NCBI GenBank assembly: GCA_027022365.1
Contig: JALVYU010000031.1
Coordinates: 1-64,000, forward strand
Source: Desulfurococcales archaeon
Lineage (GTDB): Archaea > Thermoproteota > Thermoprotei_A > Sulfolobales > Desulfurococcaceae
Length of the DNA: 64,000 nucleotides
Reading direction: 5' to 3'
Every line of letters begins with the position of its first letter. Within the stretch, counting starts at the first letter, position 1. The notes under the pieces are model-generated. The model saw nothing but the letters and a program-made list of their open reading frames with translations, did not search any database and was not told the origin of the DNA. This document shows, piece after piece, positions 55,573-64,000 of this stretch. The position numbers were made by a program, and so were the translations under genes.

Positions 55573-56814
55573 GTGAAGACAGAGTTGCCAGGCAAACCAA
55601 GGGACCTATGTCTAAGATGCAAGGGATACCGTAATCTCTGCGGGCTTGGATATTGTCCACTCCTACGCGGATTCCGCGGCAAGGTCAAAATGATATCGAG
55701 GATTAATAACACACGAGTCAACGGAGCTACACCGCCTTCTGCCCTGGTAGGCGAGTACGGGTATCCATACGTCAACGTGTACATAGGCCTCCCGCCTTGC
55801 ATACATGGTGATGAGGCCAAGAAATACGATGATCCTTCTTCATGGTTCCTAAGACTAGGATTAGGAGACATAATAGAGCTAAGATCACAGCTAGTGTACG
55901 CTAAGAAGAAAGCGAAAGTGAACGATCCATTGATGTTGTACGAGAAAGAAATAGGATTAGCGGCTTTGTCGAGAAAACCAGTTGACGCAGAGGCAGAACT
56001 ATCAGGTATACCGAAGCCCAGGCTAAGACTTGATCCTCTTCTTCCGCCAATAGGCCCCACGATATCGGCCAGAAGAATAAGAGTATCAGGTAATCCGTCT
56101 CTTCACCCAGCTCTCGAGAAGCTGATATGGGATGATGTTAGGGCCGAAGAAGCTGTTTGGATCCTTCACCGTGAAGGCCTCGACCACTACGAAATAGTAA
56201 GAGCCCTATCTCTCGGTTTCATCGGAACTATTAGGCGGAGGAAGCTTGTTCCCACGAGATGGAGCATAACAGCGGTTGACAGTATTGTAGCCAAAATGTA
56301 TCTAAGAACAATACACTTGTCGAGACCTATAAGCGATGTACTGGTCTACCATGCCGAGTATCTCTACAACAAGTACACCATAATACTTTACCCGGGAAGA
56401 TATAGTTCCGAGTGGATAGAGGTATGGATGCCCAACAGCCTTTGGAACCCACACGCTGAGCCGTCAATACTCATCATACGTGACGACTACCGTGGTCGCC
56501 CGGAGAAGATGGATGGAGGATTCCTTGCGGCAAGAACACCTATTCTCGGGCACCTTGCAAGCACTAGGAGGCAGGCCAAGGTAATAATTTTGAGGGAGGT
56601 CGCGCCACAATATATCTACCCCGTGGGCAACTGGCAGATCAGAATGACCGTTGCAGAAGCACTTCGTAGGGGCCCCGTGCTGAGAAACCCTACGAAAAAA
56701 GAGCTCCTCTTATATCTTAGGAGAACACATAGTGTTCCAACGCACATATATGATCATATTGTCGAGAAAATATACAGTGAGAGGCAGATGACCATCGATG
56801 ATTTCAAGAAATAA
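55573..56814 (+). CDS. Nre-family DNA repair protein with C-terminal PIP-like motif
   Basis: A 413-residue Nre protein. Residues about 12-28 form the family zinc site (CLRCKGYRNLCGLGYC). NGATPPSALVGEYGYPYVNVY and the run RWSITAVDSIVAKMYL are conserved. The C-terminus ends QMTIDDFKK, the position of the PCNA-interacting motif in NreA. Here the final position that usually supplies a second aromatic residue is lysine, so the PIP box is partial. Nre proteins have been implicated in DNA damage tolerance in haloarchaea. The PCNA gene is in this window at 5732. The membrane protein gene downstream overlaps it by 17 bp. Confidence 0.88.
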   Translation: MKTELPGKPRDLCLRCKGYRNLCGLGYCPLLRGFRGKVKMISRINNTRVNGATPPSALVGEYGYPYVNVYIGLPPCIHGDEAKKYDDPSSWFLRLGLGDIIELRSQLVYAKKKAKVNDPLMLYEKEIGLAALSRKPVDAEAELSGIPKPRLRLDPLLPPIGPTISARRIRVSGNPSLHPALEKLIWDDVRAEEAVWILHREGLDHYEIVRALSLGFIGTIRRRKLVPTRWSITAVDSIVAKMYLRTIHLSRPISDVLVYHAEYLYNKYTIILYPGRYSSEWIEVWMPNSLWNPHAEPSILIIRDDYRGRPEKMDGGFLAARTPILGHLASTRRQAKVIILREVAPQYIYPVGNWQIRMTVAEALRRGPVLRNPTKKELLLYLRRTHSVPTHIYDHIVEKIYSERQMTIDDFKK

Positions 56815-58114
56815 TAATATAGACACGCGCATGGAAGCCTCAGCAGGAATAATTGTATTATCACTATTTGTTTATATAGCCATTATAGCCTCAATTACCC
56901 TGGCAACCTATATGTTCTGGAACACATACTTTTTGGCACCAAGCCTCATCGTTAAGCTCAGCACATACTTTGTACTAATATTATTCACGTATATTGTTTT
57001 GACGGAGATGTATGACTTAGCGAACAACTTATCAAAAATAAAGTTATTCTCGGAGAACCTCTACATGAACCTGGAATACCTACTGATTCCTTTGAGCATT
57101 ATCTTGTCAATTGATCTACTAACTGATATAACAGCAAATATTTACAGAGAATATGAAATCGTAATGATATTAATTGATATAACTTTGATACTAGTAGAAT
57201 CTATTCTCCTCTATCTTCTTGGGAGAAGAATATTCTTAGGCCTCGAACTTAGAAAACTAATAAGAATACTTTACGGAAACACCCAAGGCCTATTACGTAG
57301 TTTTTGGAGAAAATTAAAGAATAGAGAATTATTCACCAATGCAGCATACTTTATCTCCTTCGTACTCCTTTACAACTATGGAATCCTTGCTTTCCAAGCT
57401 ATAAGAGTGATAACTGTAGCAACCGAACACATAACAATTAATTCTATTCTCAACTGCTTAGTCCTAATAATGATGATTAAACTAGTGCTATACTCATCAA
57501 CAATATCATATATGATGTACACAGGAATTATCCTATCGCCTGAACAAAAAATAGATTTGAGAAAAGTACTTGTTACACTGGATAGGCGCCAATCACTAAT
57601 TACGGCCATATATTATAGGTCCGTTAAGGAGCTGAAGATGTATATACATGAGGTTCTTCTTAATCCACTAAATGATGTTATTATCATATTACCGTATAAC
57701 ATAGATACAGAGTGTACACGTTTTATTAGAGAAGTTAAGAATAACAATACCGCCGTTATAATATATCTGAGAAGACAAACAACCGCTCTCCAGAAACTCC
57801 CCATTTCATCGGAAAAAAAGATATTTTATATTAGTTCTCTGCAGTATATGCAGATAAACTATATTATACGTGGCGTGAGATTTACCGCTCCTATACTAAG
57901 AATAATTATTTGTTTAATGCAAGATGAAAGCTTTATCGAAAAAATGGGCACTACGTTCTATAGATTCGTGAGAGGCATTATAGATTACTTCTGCGGGGCC
58001 AAGTTTACCCGTGTCTTTATAGAGTTTATAGCGCCTTATAATCGGTTCGATAATATTTCCGAATTATTGTCACTAATTGTTCATGATGAATATACATTAT
58101 CAAAACAACAATAG
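56798..58114 (+). CDS. polytopic membrane protein of KaiC-linked module (protein A)
   Basis: Unrecognised 438-residue protein: six predicted membrane helices (about residues 16-40, 48-68, 92-108, 120-141, 178-200, 213-236) followed by a soluble C-terminal domain of about 190 residues. The domain alternates strands and helices (VIIILPYNIDTECTRFIREV, AVIIYLRR, KIFYISSLQYM) in the manner of RecA/KaiC-related or DUF835-like domains but has no Walker motif. The gene is strikingly AT-rich and rich in Ile, Leu and Tyr. It overlaps the Nre gene; a KaiC-like ATPase gene follows after about 190 bp that contain an AT-rich promoter-like stretch. Confidence 0.65.
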   Translation: MISRNNNIDTRMEASAGIIVLSLFVYIAIIASITLATYMFWNTYFLAPSLIVKLSTYFVLILFTYIVLTEMYDLANNLSKIKLFSENLYMNLEYLLIPLSIILSIDLLTDITANIYREYEIVMILIDITLILVESILLYLLGRRIFLGLELRKLIRILYGNTQGLLRSFWRKLKNRELFTNAAYFISFVLLYNYGILAFQAIRVITVATEHITINSILNCLVLIMMIKLVLYSSTISYMMYTGIILSPEQKIDLRKVLVTLDRRQSLITAIYYRSVKELKMYIHEVLLNPLNDVIIILPYNIDTECTRFIREVKNNNTAVIIYLRRQTTALQKLPISSEKKIFYISSLQYMQINYIIRGVRFTAPILRIIICLMQDESFIEKMGTTFYRFVRGIIDYFCGAKFTRVFIEFIAPYNRFDNISELLSLIVHDEYTLSKQQ

Positions 58115-58306
58115 ATGTTTTCCAATAATACAACACTGTTATAATTAGTTGAAATCATTTATTGGTTAAAATAAAAAACTTGTTTTATGATATAAATCAA
58201 TATTTAGTCTTAGTGACATAGAAGTAATGTAGGTGTATTATTGGAAAGGAAACCATTACGTATGGGTGCATCTACTCATTTACACAGAATAGAGGAGGGA
58301 ATAAAT

Positions 58307-59047
58307 ATGGTCGTGATCGAAAAAGTGCCCACAGGGATTAAAGGGTTTGATGATATTGTCGAGGGAGGCCTGCCAAGGCCTGGTATAACATACATAATTG
58401 GGCACCCAGGCGTCGGGAAAACTACATTGGCTCTACAGATACTTTATAATCGTGCCCTTCAGGGAGAAAAAGGCATGTATGTATCGTTAACAGAGAAAAA
58501 AGAATCGGTTATAACTAGATATAAGGACTTCCCAGCGTTTAATAGGCTCGAGGAGTTCCTCCAAAAGAAACAACTAATGTTTTTCGAAGCCATACCCACC
58601 TATGGCCTCGGCAAAGACATGGTGATAAGCCTTATAGATGATGCATTCAACATAGCTCAGGAAAACAGTGTCAAAAACATAATATTCGATACTGTCACAA
58701 GCCTTACCATGTATCTGAGGAGAGACGAGGTTAGAACGATACTATCCTATATCAATGACAAAATCTATAACTCGAAGACAATGGGGATAATGATTGCCGA
58801 GCTACCCCTCTACAGCGAAGTAATCAACCCGCCGAATGAAGAATTCCTGTGTGACGTATTGATCGTGATGGATTATGTATGGATATATGCTGGCGCGCCA
58901 AAACTCGACGTGAGACTAATTCCCGTGAAAAGCAGAGTTGGACGAGTCGACAGGAGATCCTATATCGCGGTAATATCCCCGGAGACAGGTGTTGAAATAA
59001 TAGGTACCATTGAGACAGAGCACTTCACCCCATTCAGACAGGGATAA
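58307..59047 (+). CDS. KaiC-like RecA-superfamily ATPase
   Basis: A 246-residue single-domain KaiC-like ATPase. VPTGIKGFDDIVEGGLPRPG is the KaiC/RadA-type entry, Walker A is GHPGVGKTT at residues 32-40, the KaiC catalytic glutamate pair region reads MYVSLTEKKESV, and Walker B is KNIIFDTVTSLT. No Asgard- or archaellum-specific FlaH features are obvious. ATG 58307 has AGGAGGGA six bases upstream, which excludes the 22-codon extension to TTG 58241. KaiC-like ATPases have been proposed as hubs of archaeal signal transduction; the flanking membrane proteins suggest that this one acts at the membrane. Confidence 0.85.
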   Translation: MVVIEKVPTGIKGFDDIVEGGLPRPGITYIIGHPGVGKTTLALQILYNRALQGEKGMYVSLTEKKESVITRYKDFPAFNRLEEFLQKKQLMFFEAIPTYGLGKDMVISLIDDAFNIAQENSVKNIIFDTVTSLTMYLRRDEVRTILSYINDKIYNSKTMGIMIAELPLYSEVINPPNEEFLCDVLIVMDYVWIYAGAPKLDVRLIPVKSRVGRVDRRSYIAVISPETGVEIIGTIETEHFTPFRQG

Positions 59048-59052
59048 CATAA

Positions 59053-60597
59053 TTGACCAATAGATTTTCAACCTGTATCCGCAGATCTATAAAACACACA
59101 GCCTTCATACCGCTCTATTTATTTATACTTATCATCTTCATCGCAATACTCTCCATTATGACCGAGAGAGGCAAAACAATTAGTGTTTCCCCGGTATTTT
59201 TGTTCTTATCTATGATAATGTATACACTCTACATTGCATTGCTCATAAGGATATACATGTATGCTAGGACTATTTTAGATATAGAAACATCGTGTGGAAT
59301 AATATCCCTAGGTATACTTACTTTTCTTTATCCTCTAGTCATTTTGCTGCCGTTTTTTTATCAAGCTAATAAAAGTTTTTCATACATAATAGATGTCTTT
59401 ATTATAGTAAATGCCTTGTTGATCGAATTACACTACGCTAATGTGCTATCTAGAGTTTTTAGTCTAATAAGTAATATTAGTGGAGCGAATGAGGGCGAGC
59501 CTTCAAGCCTCGTATCCTATAGATTTAAGAATATGTGGCTTCTAAGGGGCTTCGCTATCCTTGGTTCAATCCTCGTTTTAGTTCTTTTTATACTAATGAA
59601 GCTGTTTGTATCAAGTGTGAGCCATGAGTATCTGTTTTTTATCGTTGGCTTGACTATAGTGTTTCTTGTTTTGTCAGGAGTAATAACAGTGAGGTATAAG
59701 ATTACAAACGTCTTGTATCAAGGCCTCAGATTCGCATCTCTTTATAGGTTGTTTACATTAATGAATATTCTCGCCATACTGGTCTTTTTCGGCGTAGCGG
59801 CTGCAAATACAATGATAGAATACAAGGGTTTTATTGATCCATACGCTGTGTCTTTTCTCGTCGAGATAGTCATTGCTATGTTTGTTCTTGCTTTCCTAAA
59901 ATATTCTCTTGACGATCTTGTCGGACTTATTATTGTGTCGAAAGTCCCGGGCATTGCTATGAAGGTAGGCCTACTCCCCATCTATATGATCGTGCACGAT
60001 ATCCCCGTTATGAATAGTGTATCTAAGGTTACCCGTGTTTTTGGTGACATCCTTCGCTCGGTATGGATGGCCGGGTTCCCGATAAATACCATAATATATA
60101 TATCGAAGCCTCACAGTCTTATTAGGGCTTTACTTCTCTTCAACTTTTATGAAACCTACGACGAAGTAAAAACAGAGATTACGTCTCTAGGAAGAAACAT
60201 GGATAAACTACTCGGCAATCCTATAGCTCATATATTCAATATAAACATATCTTATCCGACATCAGAAACTTTGCCTAGACAACCTAGACAGTATTTCGGC
60301 ATAGAGGTTCATGAGAGGAGCATTACCTTCGAGCGCATCTACTTGATACGCTCTATCATGGGTATCATAAGAAGGTCTAAGGGCGTTCTCTTGGTTATAG
60401 AGGATCTATCAGATCTGATCAATATATCGAGCTTTACAACAGTATATTCCCTTATAAGAACACTTATATCGTTATTGAGGCCTAATGTGGATGCGATGGT
60501 CATCATAACACCCAAATATAGACCGCATGAAGAATACATAAATGTTTTTAAGAGTATAGCTAATAGCGTGGTGGACGTAACAAGATTATTAATCTAA
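59053..60597 (+). CDS. polytopic membrane protein of KaiC-linked module (protein B)
   Basis: Unrecognised 514-residue protein: eight predicted membrane helices (about residues 17-37, 45-68, 80-102, 108-127, 163-185, 190-210, 231-251, 264-283) and a C-terminal soluble domain of about 215 residues. In the latter, RRSKGVLLVIEDLSDLINISSFTTVYSLIRTLI looks like a Walker B strand and following helix of a KaiC/DUF835-type domain, with no P-loop. It starts at TTG 59053, 5 bp after the ATPase stop, so the two are co-transcribed. Protein A has the same membrane-plus-soluble plan. Confidence 0.65.
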   Translation: MTNRFSTCIRRSIKHTAFIPLYLFILIIFIAILSIMTERGKTISVSPVFLFLSMIMYTLYIALLIRIYMYARTILDIETSCGIISLGILTFLYPLVILLPFFYQANKSFSYIIDVFIIVNALLIELHYANVLSRVFSLISNISGANEGEPSSLVSYRFKNMWLLRGFAILGSILVLVLFILMKLFVSSVSHEYLFFIVGLTIVFLVLSGVITVRYKITNVLYQGLRFASLYRLFTLMNILAILVFFGVAAANTMIEYKGFIDPYAVSFLVEIVIAMFVLAFLKYSLDDLVGLIIVSKVPGIAMKVGLLPIYMIVHDIPVMNSVSKVTRVFGDILRSVWMAGFPINTIIYISKPHSLIRALLLFNFYETYDEVKTEITSLGRNMDKLLGNPIAHIFNINISYPTSETLPRQPRQYFGIEVHERSITFERIYLIRSIMGIIRRSKGVLLVIEDLSDLINISSFTTVYSLIRTLISLLRPNVDAMVIITPKYRPHEEYINVFKSIANSVVDVTRLLI

Positions 60598-60669: not shown

Positions 60670-61476
60670 TTGGCCGAGAATGCCGATGAGAGAGAGATAT
60701 ATGATATCATTGCGGGTATGCCTATAGAGACGGAAAAGCTCAATATACTGTCTGATATAACATTTGAGGCGCAGCTCCTCCTGAGAAGCAAGTTCATCAA
60801 GAAGATCAAGCTCAGCTTCGATGATTTCAAAAATCTCCCTAAGCTGGCCGAAGACAAGGAGGTTCTCCTCACAACAACTCTAGATGGAAAGAGATTTATA
60901 GTATATTTGAGCCACGGGAAAATCGTTTCTTCAGCCATGGTAGATACAAGAAAAGGAACCAGACAAGTAGGCCTAAAGCCGCTCGCAACATTAATCGCAG
61001 CTTCAAAGATAGCTCCCATAGTGTTTAAACTGTATGAGATCCAACCAATGGTCTCAGAAGATAGAACACGGGAAGCAAGTATTAGGCCCCGGTCACTAGA
61101 AGTTGGTTTCAAAAGACGTACTAGGCCTGTCAGGGTAATGGCTAAACCCGAGATCAGGCATGGTGGAATCGAAGAAAAAGAGAGTGGAGAACCAATAATA
61201 CTCGAGTTCACTAAACGCATAAAAGAGTTCATGGAAAAAATGAAGGAAGATGTTGCAGATCTAGCCGGTTATTACGGCTGTAAATTCATTGATCTCAAGA
61301 TCGAGATAAGCAGAGGGATACTTAAGATAAAGATCTATGTAAAAAAGAAAGGATTGTTCACAAAATGCCGTGCTGAGGACTTGAAGAAAGCTGTTGAAAA
61401 CGATGCAGACATACTGCTCACCATGCTTGACCTAGATACTCCTTGCGAGGTACATGTGATCGAGCGCAGAAAATAG
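60670..61476 (+). CDS. uncharacterised two-domain soluble protein
   Basis: Unrecognised 268-residue protein. An N-terminal domain (about 1-120) includes strands and helices such as KEVLLTTTLDGKRFIVYLSHGKIVSSAMVD and GLKPLATLIAASKIA, in the style of small ligand- or effector-binding domains. A basic linker of about 40 residues follows, then an alpha/beta C-terminal domain (KFIDLKIEISRGILKIKIYVKK, ADILLTMLDLDTPCEVHVIE). TTG 60670 has GGGGAGGATT upstream. It lies 72 bp downstream of protein B on the same strand and may belong to the same system. Confidence 0.6.
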   Translation: MAENADEREIYDIIAGMPIETEKLNILSDITFEAQLLLRSKFIKKIKLSFDDFKNLPKLAEDKEVLLTTTLDGKRFIVYLSHGKIVSSAMVDTRKGTRQVGLKPLATLIAASKIAPIVFKLYEIQPMVSEDRTREASIRPRSLEVGFKRRTRPVRVMAKPEIRHGGIEEKESGEPIILEFTKRIKEFMEKMKEDVADLAGYYGCKFIDLKIEISRGILKIKIYVKKKGLFTKCRAEDLKKAVENDADILLTMLDLDTPCEVHVIERRK

Positions 61477-61619: not shown

Positions 61620-62510
61620 ATGAATAGTGGTGGATCGTGCTTGATACTGAGATTTGTACGTGTCAGAGAGAGGCCTGCCGGAAGAATACCTGATCTCTAC
61701 ATCGACACTATCTATGAGCTTGGGAAATACTCGTATTCAGCGGTAGTACTGCGTGTGAGAGATCAGCCAGGAGTTCTAGCCAAGATATTGGATGTTATGG
61801 CTAAACATGGAATTGATATTGCTAAGGTGAATGTCCCTGAGATCCCACATGGAGGAGAGGCATTCATATCAATAATAATGCGTAACTGTGATGAAGCATG
61901 TCTTGACGAAATAGAGAAGCAATTGCGAGGACTCGATGTTGTCCTTGGAATCAAGAAATTTGTGCCGCAGACGGGATTCTTGTTTATCAAATATAATTCT
62001 ATAAAAATACTTGATCAGCCCAGCATAATACTAACACGCAATATGATACGTAGCATTATTGATATGTTCATTAAGCATGGAGGCTATGCTGATCTTGGAA
62101 CTAGGAACACTCTCAGAACGATCGGTCATGGAATAGGGAGGCAGCTCTATGAGTGCATATCCAAGATAGAGACTGAAGTTGGGGAGGGAATAGAAGAGTA
62201 TAAGGTCGCGTTAGACTTGTTAAGAGATATCTATGAGTCCTTGGGATTCGGAACAATGGACATCATTGAAGTAACTCCAATGATGAGGTATACCATAAGG
62301 ATAAAGAACAATATGGAGTGTGCCGCTGCACGTGATCTCCACATAATCGATTTCACGGGATATATCACGAGAGGAATACTAGAGCAGTTCTTTGCCGATC
62401 TTTTCGGACGACGTGCAGTAGCCAAAGAAACAAGATGCATAAACCATGGCGATGAAATAGATGAATTCAAAGTTGACGTGTACGAGTCCACAACAATATT
62501 CTTAAGATAA
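61620..62510 (+). CDS. ACT-V4R domain ligand-sensing protein
   Basis: A 296-residue protein with an ACT domain (about residues 38-115: YSAVVLRVRDQPGVLAKILDVMAKHGIDIAKVNV) and a C-terminal V4R domain (about 140-296) ending in RCINHGDEIDEFKVDVY. V4R proteins normally have cysteines near GDxCEF; here the second is replaced in GDEIDEFKV, while NNMECAAARD and TRCINHGD keep others. ACT domains bind amino acids and V4R domains bind hydrocarbons or act as signalling adaptors, so a small-molecule sensor is predicted. Promoter-like AT-rich sequence (about 61530-61560) precedes it. Confidence 0.8.
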   Translation: MNSGGSCLILRFVRVRERPAGRIPDLYIDTIYELGKYSYSAVVLRVRDQPGVLAKILDVMAKHGIDIAKVNVPEIPHGGEAFISIIMRNCDEACLDEIEKQLRGLDVVLGIKKFVPQTGFLFIKYNSIKILDQPSIILTRNMIRSIIDMFIKHGGYADLGTRNTLRTIGHGIGRQLYECISKIETEVGEGIEEYKVALDLLRDIYESLGFGTMDIIEVTPMMRYTIRIKNNMECAAARDLHIIDFTGYITRGILEQFFADLFGRRAVAKETRCINHGDEIDEFKVDVYESTTIFLR

Positions 62511-62664: not shown

Positions 62665-64000
62665 TTACATGCCGAGCTCTCTTGTGCGTTCGAATAACTC
62701 CTTTGTAGCTTCACCAACTTCTTTTGTGCCTGAAACCAGTTCTGCTGTTTCTGCAGCTTCTGTTTCAGGCGCCATTGGAAGTACTTCAACCTCTGTCCCT
62801 GTCTCTTTTAGCTCTTCTACCGCACGCTTATAGACCGCTGCGGGGTCGTAGTAGTAGTTGAATATTATTCTCGAGACATCCCATACATTAGTTACCCCCT
62901 TGTACAACATCCAGTTCAATATAGTTGCCTTCCTGTAGATCTCGTCAATAATGTCCTCGAGGTCGAGGCCGCGCTTCATAGCGATATCTCTCAAGTGTAT
63001 GCTCTTCTCAAGATCTACTCTGAACGCGTCCTCCTTAGGATCCCATTGCGCCACTGTTATGTAGCGGTTATAGTCCTCAACCTCCTGCACGATAGTGACT
63101 CTTCTCTGCACCTTCACAACTCCTTTCTCAATACGCGTGATCACACGCCGCAAGTGTATGAACACGTTCATTAGCTTCATATAGGTAGGCGGGATATTCA
63201 TTGGCGGGCTCGTCAGCCTCTTGATAGCATAATCAAGCGTCTCGGCGTGAATGGTCGATAAACCTCCGTGTCCCGTGGCTAGTGATTGGAAGAGCACGAA
63301 TGCCTCCTCGCCACGGACCTCGCCGACGACGATGTAGTCTGGACGGTAACGTAGGCTGAGCTTCACGAGATCGAAGAGCCTGATGCTTGTACCGCCGGAT
63401 GAGCCTACTAGGTAGCTCTCACGGCTCGTAAGCTGTACCCAGTTGGGGTGGGGGAGGTTGATCTCAGGGGTGTCCTCAACCGTTACTATCTTCATACCGG
63501 GCTTGATGAACATCGAGATAACGTTTAGCAAAGTGGTCTTGCCGGTACCAGTACCGCCTGCGATCATCGCTGTCTTGGCGTGCTCGATCAGTTCCCATAG
63601 ATAAGCCGCTACGAGAGTGTTGAGCTCTCCCGACTGTATTATCTCTGTCACGCTGAATGGTCTCTCGCGGAACTTACGTATTGTGAATGTTGGTCCTTTA
63701 ACCGATACTTCTCTGCCGAAAGTTGCCGCTAGCCTGTGCTTCTCGGGTAGCATCGCGTCTAGGATTGGGAACGCAATACTGATGTGTTTACCCGCCATGT
63801 GTGCCATTTTCATGATGAACTCGTTCAGGTAGTCTTCGTCGAGGAAGGTAATGTTTGTAGGTATGCTCTCATACTTTTTGTGCCATACATAGATCGGTAT
63901 ATTTACGCCGTTACAGCTTATATCCTCGATATTCGGATCCTTCATGAGCGGGTCTATCGGTCCGTAGCCCAGCAGGTTTCTCTCGATATAGTAGAGCAAT
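62665..64000 (-). CDS. type II/IV secretion system ATPase (GspE/ArlI-like), 5' end beyond window
   Basis: Hexameric secretion or pilus-assembly ATPase; its N-terminus lies beyond the right edge. In order: LLGYGPIDPLMKDPNIEDISCNG (N-terminal domain), Walker A AGGTGTGKTTLLN, the aspartate box TVEDTPEINLPHPN, Walker B DYIVVGEVRGEEA, and the histidine box ATGHGGLSTIHAE. These assign it to the archaeal type IV filament ATPases; archaellum (ArlI), adhesive pilus and other machines cannot be separated on this part. The C-terminus has an unusual acidic extension rich in Glu/Ala/Thr (EVEVLPMAPETEAAETAELV, then a charged helix). Its membrane partner should lie just downstream of typical operons but is not present on this side. 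Confidence 0.9.
   Translation of the reverse strand, partial: LLYYIERNLLGYGPIDPLMKDPNIEDISCNGVNIPIYVWHKKYESIPTNITFLDEDYLNEFIMKMAHMAGKHISIAFPILDAMLPEKHRLAATFGREVSVKGPTFTIRKFRERPFSVTEIIQSGELNTLVAAYLWELIEHAKTAMIAGGTGTGKTTLLNVISMFIKPGMKIVTVEDTPEINLPHPNWVQLTSRESYLVGSSGGTSIRLFDLVKLSLRYRPDYIVVGEVRGEEAFVLFQSLATGHGGLSTIHAETLDYAIKRLTSPPMNIPPTYMKLMNVFIHLRRVITRIEKGVVKVQRRVTIVQEVEDYNRYITVAQWDPKEDAFRVDLEKSIHLRDIAMKRGLDLEDIIDEIYRKATILNWMLYKGVTNVWDVSRIIFNYYYDPAAVYKRAVEELKETGTEVEVLPMAPETEAAETAELVSGTKEVGEATKELFERTRELGM

Follow-up and report, generated by a model that had tools for sequence, protein, structure and literature searches.

Archaeal KaiC-like ATPases have been proposed as signalling hubs with partners that carry inactivated KaiC (iKaiC) domains, a view said to go back to Makarova and colleagues in 2017, and we know of no settled answer to the question of how such ATPases or their dead relatives are connected to the membrane. 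Inactivated KaiC domains, for example DUF835 and MEDS, have been described as signalling partners, with reported fusions to receiver and PAS domains (Galperin et al. 2018; PMC5847659). Here, a locus in the first 64 000 nucleotides of contig JALVYU010000031.1 (forward strand; GenBank assembly GCA_027022365.1, Desulfurococcales archaeon; hereafter the window) was analysed, in which the gene for a small KaiC-family ATPase (protein K) is directly followed by the gene for a multi-spanning membrane protein (protein B) with a C-terminal domain that is predicted to be a KaiC fold lacking the P-loop. K and B form one conserved unit, and this unit fits the already proposed principle of a live KaiC with dead relatives as signalling partners.

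As in the KaiC–iKaiC hubs, a live KaiC-family ATPase is linked to a protein with a P-loop-less KaiC-like domain, and a putative ACT-V4R sensor is encoded close by (protein D, separated from B by protein C). Unlike in these hubs, the dead domain resides on a protein with eight transmembrane (TM) helices encoded directly after the ATPase gene, and it scores below the DUF835 cut-off. No description of a pair of K and a fast-evolving 8-TM dead partner, or of the related B2 family introduced below, was found in the literature searched; an earlier mention in the 2017 KaiC paper is possible. An original prediction, made from the sequence of the window, had proposed a receptor–ATPase unit of three proteins, with K between B and a second membrane protein encoded upstream (protein A), and possibly with C and D.

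Protein K is a single-domain KaiC-family ATPase

Protein K (58307–59047, + strand; 246 residues) was assigned to the KaiC family by its score against PF06745 (113.7 bits, cut-off 26.6) and by its orthologues in five genera. Its frame was listed from TTG 58241; ATG 58307, which is preceded by GGAGG, is most likely the translation start, because the upstream codons (the first 19 of the longer frame) match nothing in most relatives. The Walker A motif (GHPGVGKTT, 58400–58426, + strand) and the Walker B strand (NIIFDTVTSL, 58676–58705, + strand) are intact, as had been read from the sequence before, and the key residues are invariant across the five genera (ten sequences): G32, P34, G35, G37, K38, T39, E63, N124 and D128 of the Walker B strand, and K208-S209-R210 (58928–58936, + strand). 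By comparison with solved KaiC structures, E63 corresponds to the second of two adjacent catalytic glutamates, the first one being replaced, and the K-S-R motif stands where we take the trans-acting finger of KaiC to lie. K is expected to bind ATP and probably hydrolyses it as an oligomer; altered chemistry is possible.

Orthologues of K scored 357–422 bits in ten genomes from five genera, the next best match among the 211 genomes of the order reaching 113 bits, and formed one clade in the tree (support 100/99). With cyanobacterial KaiC, K shares the ATPase family, the Walker motifs, one catalytic glutamate and the K-x-R finger, but it has one domain instead of two, lacks the first catalytic glutamate and is paired with a membrane protein instead of KaiA and KaiB. 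It is not a clock-type KaiC (46.1 bits with the TIGR02655 equivalog model, cut-off 546), and the analysis gave no evidence of a clock function. Like ArlH (FlaH), K is a single-domain KaiC-type ATPase encoded near a secretion ATPase locus; an assignment as ArlH was rejected on the score with the NF052589 equivalog model, which is far below the cut-off (42.4 versus 215 bits). K further differs from ArlH in being convergent to the pilus genes and paired with B. Proteins of KaiC type number at least five in the genome, and a gene resembling ArlH, distinct from that of K, adjoins the gene of an ArlI-like ATPase. A role in anti-phage defence was likewise dismissed, PADLOC returning only weak P-loop matches to K and no match to the other four proteins (A–D).

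The C-terminal domain of protein B resembles KaiC without a P-loop

Hydropathy analysis gave eight to nine TM helices for protein B (59053–60597, + strand; 514 residues) and six for protein A, in agreement with the eight and six helices proposed for the two neighbours of K. The even-numbered loops of B are short and carry few positive charges, which makes the cytoplasm the most likely location of the C-terminal 207 residues. In the full-length model of B the membrane part was poor and the domain (59938–60594, + strand) was fair to good, with block means mostly 72–90 and a predicted local distance difference test (pLDDT) score mostly >70. A Foldseek search with this model against the PDB retrieved RadA (7e-4), KaiC CI (1.2e-3), FlaH (3.6e-3), NSF, Rho and the uncharacterised PH0250, mostly with probabilities of 0.99–1.0; target-normalised TM-scores were 0.39–0.50 (KaiC CI, FlaH, PH0250), the query-normalised values being low as they count the membrane part.

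At the sequence level, the domain from the window alone matched no Pfam family, and the domains of its orthologues matched DUF835 (E-value 5e-4), DUF7504 (2e-3) and KaiC (0.07). By score the protein lies outside DUF835 (PF05763), the best B orthologue reaching 17.9 bits for the whole protein at a cut-off of 33.1 and B itself giving no match. Comparison of the B profile with a broad KaiC profile by hhalign gave P 5e-4, with a score higher than those of 60/60 column-shuffled and 60/60 reversed-rotated controls; a comparison with KaiC paralogues was set aside because one column shuffle scored an aberrant 133.7. In the hhalign alignments the Walker-B-like strand of B (VLLVIEDLSDL, 60385–60417, + strand), already pointed out in the original prediction, falls on the Walker B strand of KaiC and of K. 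A joint profile of B and its paralogue B2 aligned with the terminal domain of a TM-MEDS-DUF7504/DUF835-like protein from another member of the phylum (P 2e-7, 143 columns) and only at P 0.01 with a full-score DUF835 domain alone, and sequence profiles of PDB entries yielded no credible relatives of the A, B and B2 domains. A P-loop (GxxGxGKT) was searched for in B and all its orthologues and was found in none of them, and the domain of B stops short of the position of the K-x-R finger. Judged by the model, the C-terminal domain of B is a RecA/KaiC fold without P-loop and an iKaiC domain in the sense of PMC5847659; a domain with neither P-loop nor K-x-R finger in its predicted sequence cannot work as an ATPase.

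K and B are paired across genera

A, K and B are open frames in one orientation, and the same-genus contigs L009–L013 show an unchanged gene order (nreA–A–K–B–C–D–pilus ATPase) over the part that each of them covers. Ratios of non-synonymous to synonymous substitution rates (dN/dS), taken where dS was unsaturated, were 0.08–0.20 for A, 0.01–0.07 for K and 0.06–0.18 for B, and this purifying selection identifies all three as real genes. The genes of K and B are separated by 5 base pairs (bp); the gene of A lies about 190 bp from that of K and starts within the end of nreA (55573–56814), and the three are therefore apparently not an operon of equals.

A genus-level profile search of 214 genomes of the order recovered A and B in this genus only, and synteny extends B further: in genomes G020, G021, G015 and G011, K is followed in turn by a B-like membrane protein, C, D and the pilus ATPase. 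Across the four genera, K and B are 5 bp apart in the window, abut directly (0 bp) in G020 and G021, overlap in G011 (-8 bp) and are 75 bp apart in G015. For the B-like proteins of these genomes 4–7 TM helices are predicted; they are about 20% identical to B and can be aligned with it in the C-terminal domain. A joint profile built from them recovers them, which is no independent test; independently of this profile, three of them match the B domain of the window by BLASTP (E 4e-6, 6e-4 and 5e-3). B, C and D stand at contig ends in G037 and G014. In G039 it is K and C that are each located where a contig stops, a pattern that an assembly break within B would yield. Among the complete genomes of the family none has K without B or B without K, the single finds being located at contig ends; in G010, nreA, C and D are present with none of A, K and B between them.

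K and B are one conserved unit, because their adjacency persists in four genera despite an identity of about 20% between the B proteins and despite differing upstream genes. The original prediction had made neighbourhood in relatives a test of its three-gene arrangement; K and B are adjacent in other genera, so the prediction withstands this test for the pair, and A is set apart from it for the reasons given below. That the genes are mere neighbours, with K as one paralogue in a set of KaiC proteins and with A and B as unrelated membrane proteins, could be argued from the number of KaiC-type proteins in the genome, from the restriction of the variable A to one genus and from the close relationship of the K/B genera, but the K–B gap stays between -8 and 75 bp next to differing upstream genes and the domain of B is itself related to K, and we consider a lack of joint function very improbable.

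B2, an unlinked paralogue of B

A search with the B-domain profile detected a second membrane protein, B2, of about 470–485 residues with 5–8 predicted TM helices and a domain of the same kind (hhalign against B: 2e-14 over 146 columns). In the genome of the window, B2, with its P-loop-less KaiC-like domain, is encoded at G000:C11:81767–83182 (L139:5768–7183) and adjoins an M55 D-aminopeptidase gene. The B2 profile was positive in genera g1, g5, g6, g7, g11, g15 and g16, the same seven that have K or B. In the tree of the pilus ATPase these seven fall into one group in which, of the sampled genera, only g4 is nested, the g4 genome being only 70% complete; because the seven group together, the co-occurrence of B2 with K or B counts as roughly a single common gain and no more than one common loss. 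B2 may be a further or alternative membrane partner of K, for which this distribution is a hint and not proof.

The M55 neighbour of B2 could point to peptide metabolism and, together with the many helices and tiny outside loops of B, would suit a membrane part that is a transporter or an enzyme and no signalling receptor, K and the dead KaiC domain only regulating it. Family profile searches, however, matched no transporter or enzyme family with A, B or their orthologues, and the membrane part of B evolves faster than its domain (56–59% versus 77% identity), unlike a typical transport core, which makes a regulated transporter or enzyme improbable.

Protein A is a genus-bound membrane protein

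Protein A (56798–58114, + strand; 438 residues) shows a clear inside-positive pattern over its six TM helices, with a seventh hydropathy peak inside the soluble domain, and ends in an alpha/beta domain of about 185 residues (57557–58111, + strand) that is predicted to be cytoplasmic by loop charge. The model of A was weak (block means 45–71 in the domain), and its best Foldseek matches were PH0250 and the Elongator subunits Elp4/5/6. The latter have a RecA fold, lack the P-loop and assemble into a ring. The A domain may share with them a RecA fold without classical ATPase motifs; unlike A they are soluble and eukaryotic, and the likeness comes from a low-confidence model of A only. Comparison of the A domain with the KaiC profile stayed at noise level, and a KaiC/RecA fold of this domain is possible. 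The proposal that both C-terminal domains are P-loop-less relatives of KaiC and DUF835 is thus borne out for B, by the modelled RecA/KaiC fold, the profile score above 120/120 controls and the orthologue match to DUF835, and is possible for A.

Sequence homologues of A were found only in this genus (genus-level profile, 214 genomes of the order). The slot before K, filled by A in this genus, holds a different membrane protein in G015, and a 153-residue soluble protein in G020 and G021; in G011 it is empty, and the divergent DHH gene lies upstream of K. Since homologues are confined to the genus, the start overlaps nreA and the slot before K is variable, A is, as far as can be predicted, a lineage-specific extra membrane protein outside the K–B unit, and A–K–B as an inseparable trio was rejected on the same grounds.

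Three further assignments were tried and discarded. A and B are not supported as paralogues (all A versus all B, P 0.01; in the comparison of the A domain with B, 1/60 shuffles scored as high), the slot membrane protein of G015 agrees with an A orthologue in position alone (profile P 0.22), and reading the 153-residue protein of G020 and G021 as a small iKaiC found no profile support. The latter protein (L090:6016–6477, L091:9661–10122) carries a Walker-B-like stretch, LIVFVDIDDL.

Proteins C and D and the pilus locus

Downstream of B follow protein C (60670–61476, + strand), which has two domains and belongs to no known family, and the ACT-V4R protein D (61620–62510, + strand), a putative sensor matching ACT (3e-9) and V4R (4e-5), the latter above cut-off in several orthologues. 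Convergent with K–B–C–D lies the gene of a type IV pilus secretion ATPase (T2SSE; 62665–63999, - strand; PF00437, 118.9 bits), which extends beyond the window end. Beyond the window, the secretion ATPase gene is arranged head-to-head with that of a TadC-like protein of 598 residues, and pilin-like proteins are encoded that start with a hydrophobic segment like class III signal peptides. Pilus loci of Desulfurococcales with comparable additional components have been described (PMC4858521).

The search of the order recovered C from 26 genomes, in most cases next to the pilus ATPase gene and also where K–B is missing. Almost every readable locus has C close to the pilus ATPase (exception G019; G004 unreadable), a vicinity preserved in most genera of the family that have C, whether or not the KaiC genes are present, and C may act in the assembly or the control of the pilus. 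In G014, C is flanked by an ACT-V4R gene on either side (L098:3948–6658). C and D, brought forward as possible members of the receptor–ATPase unit, are indeed stable neighbours of K–B, but they need not be its subunits because genomes without K–B have them; they are candidate members only.

In 4/4 genera where the locus is readable, K–B lies beside C–D and is convergent to the pilus ATPase; beyond the window, the TadC-like and pilin-like genes come next. This arrangement, the prediction that KaiC families regulate archaeal pili (PMC4858521), and FlaH among the Foldseek matches of B would agree with K being an ArlH-like regulatory ATPase of the neighbouring pilus, bound to the secretion ATPase in the manner of ArlH and ArlI, B then being a pilus-base adaptor and no receptor. 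CirA, a KaiC-like protein of Haloferax, influences both motility and the shape of the cells (PMC13286277). The failure of K with the ArlH model and the separate ArlH-like gene beside an ArlI-like ATPase speak against such a role, as do the same pilus locus being kept without K–B in other genera and the convergent genes, which form no single operon; we hold it to be rather unlikely.

Long insertions that resemble inteins, most of them in frame, interrupt the pilus ATPase gene of several relatives once or twice, around residues 150 and 242 (L013:11396–15478, L090:10662–13871, L092:5493–8660, L095:939–5348). In the genome of the window, the ArlI-like ATPase encoded next to the ArlH-like gene runs at a contig end into sequence that resembles an intein start (L005:1–1437; G000:C11).

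A proposed membrane-tethered KaiC switch

Taken as slightly better supported than its negation, our favoured explanation is that K and B make up a KaiC switch tethered to the membrane, in which B would be receptor or anchor and its pseudo-KaiC domain (DUF835/DUF7504-like) would dock on a ring of K. The analysis establishes the parts with the family and motifs of K, the fold of the B domain by model, the topology by charge, the conserved linkage and the distribution; binding of K to B, the signal and the output are inferred. B would be held in the membrane by about eight helices with very short outside loops, and because these loops are so short its input would probably be a signal that is small and hydrophobic or resides in the membrane, or else a further membrane protein. 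The signal would alter B, and the pseudo-KaiC domain would then dock on the K ring or occupy a place in it; we infer this docking because K and the B domain have a fold in common, their genes are closely paired, and K and B are absent together. Through docking, B could control whether K binds ATP, hydrolyses it or phosphorylates itself, or could keep K at the membrane. K would hand its state to an effector, possibly a regulator or the pilus machinery, and D may serve as a second sensor. The convergent type IV pilus machine is the leading guess, on account of the neighbouring pilus genes and the reports on KaiC families and CirA, but one with less than an even chance of being right, as C keeps its place by the pilus ATPase with or without K–B.

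Three points weigh against the membrane-tethered switch. The chemistry of K is uncertain, since one of the two catalytic glutamates appears to be lost. C adjoins the pilus ATPase in genera without K–B, so its linkage to the pilus locus says little about K–B. The K/B genera are close relatives in the pilus ATPase tree, and with this kinship the joint presence of K–B and of B2 amounts to few independent events.

A bolder version, in which membrane-anchored dead KaiC subunits enter or cap a live KaiC ring and B, B2 and perhaps A are interchangeable for one ATPase, appears unlikely to us, if worth stating; if true, it would represent a principle of transmembrane signalling without histidine kinase or receiver domains. 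With a live KaiC and a dead membrane-bound relative encoded as a tight pair in several genera, and with B2 as a second, unlinked candidate membrane subunit in the same organisms, the signalling-hub idea becomes testable on a single small protein pair.

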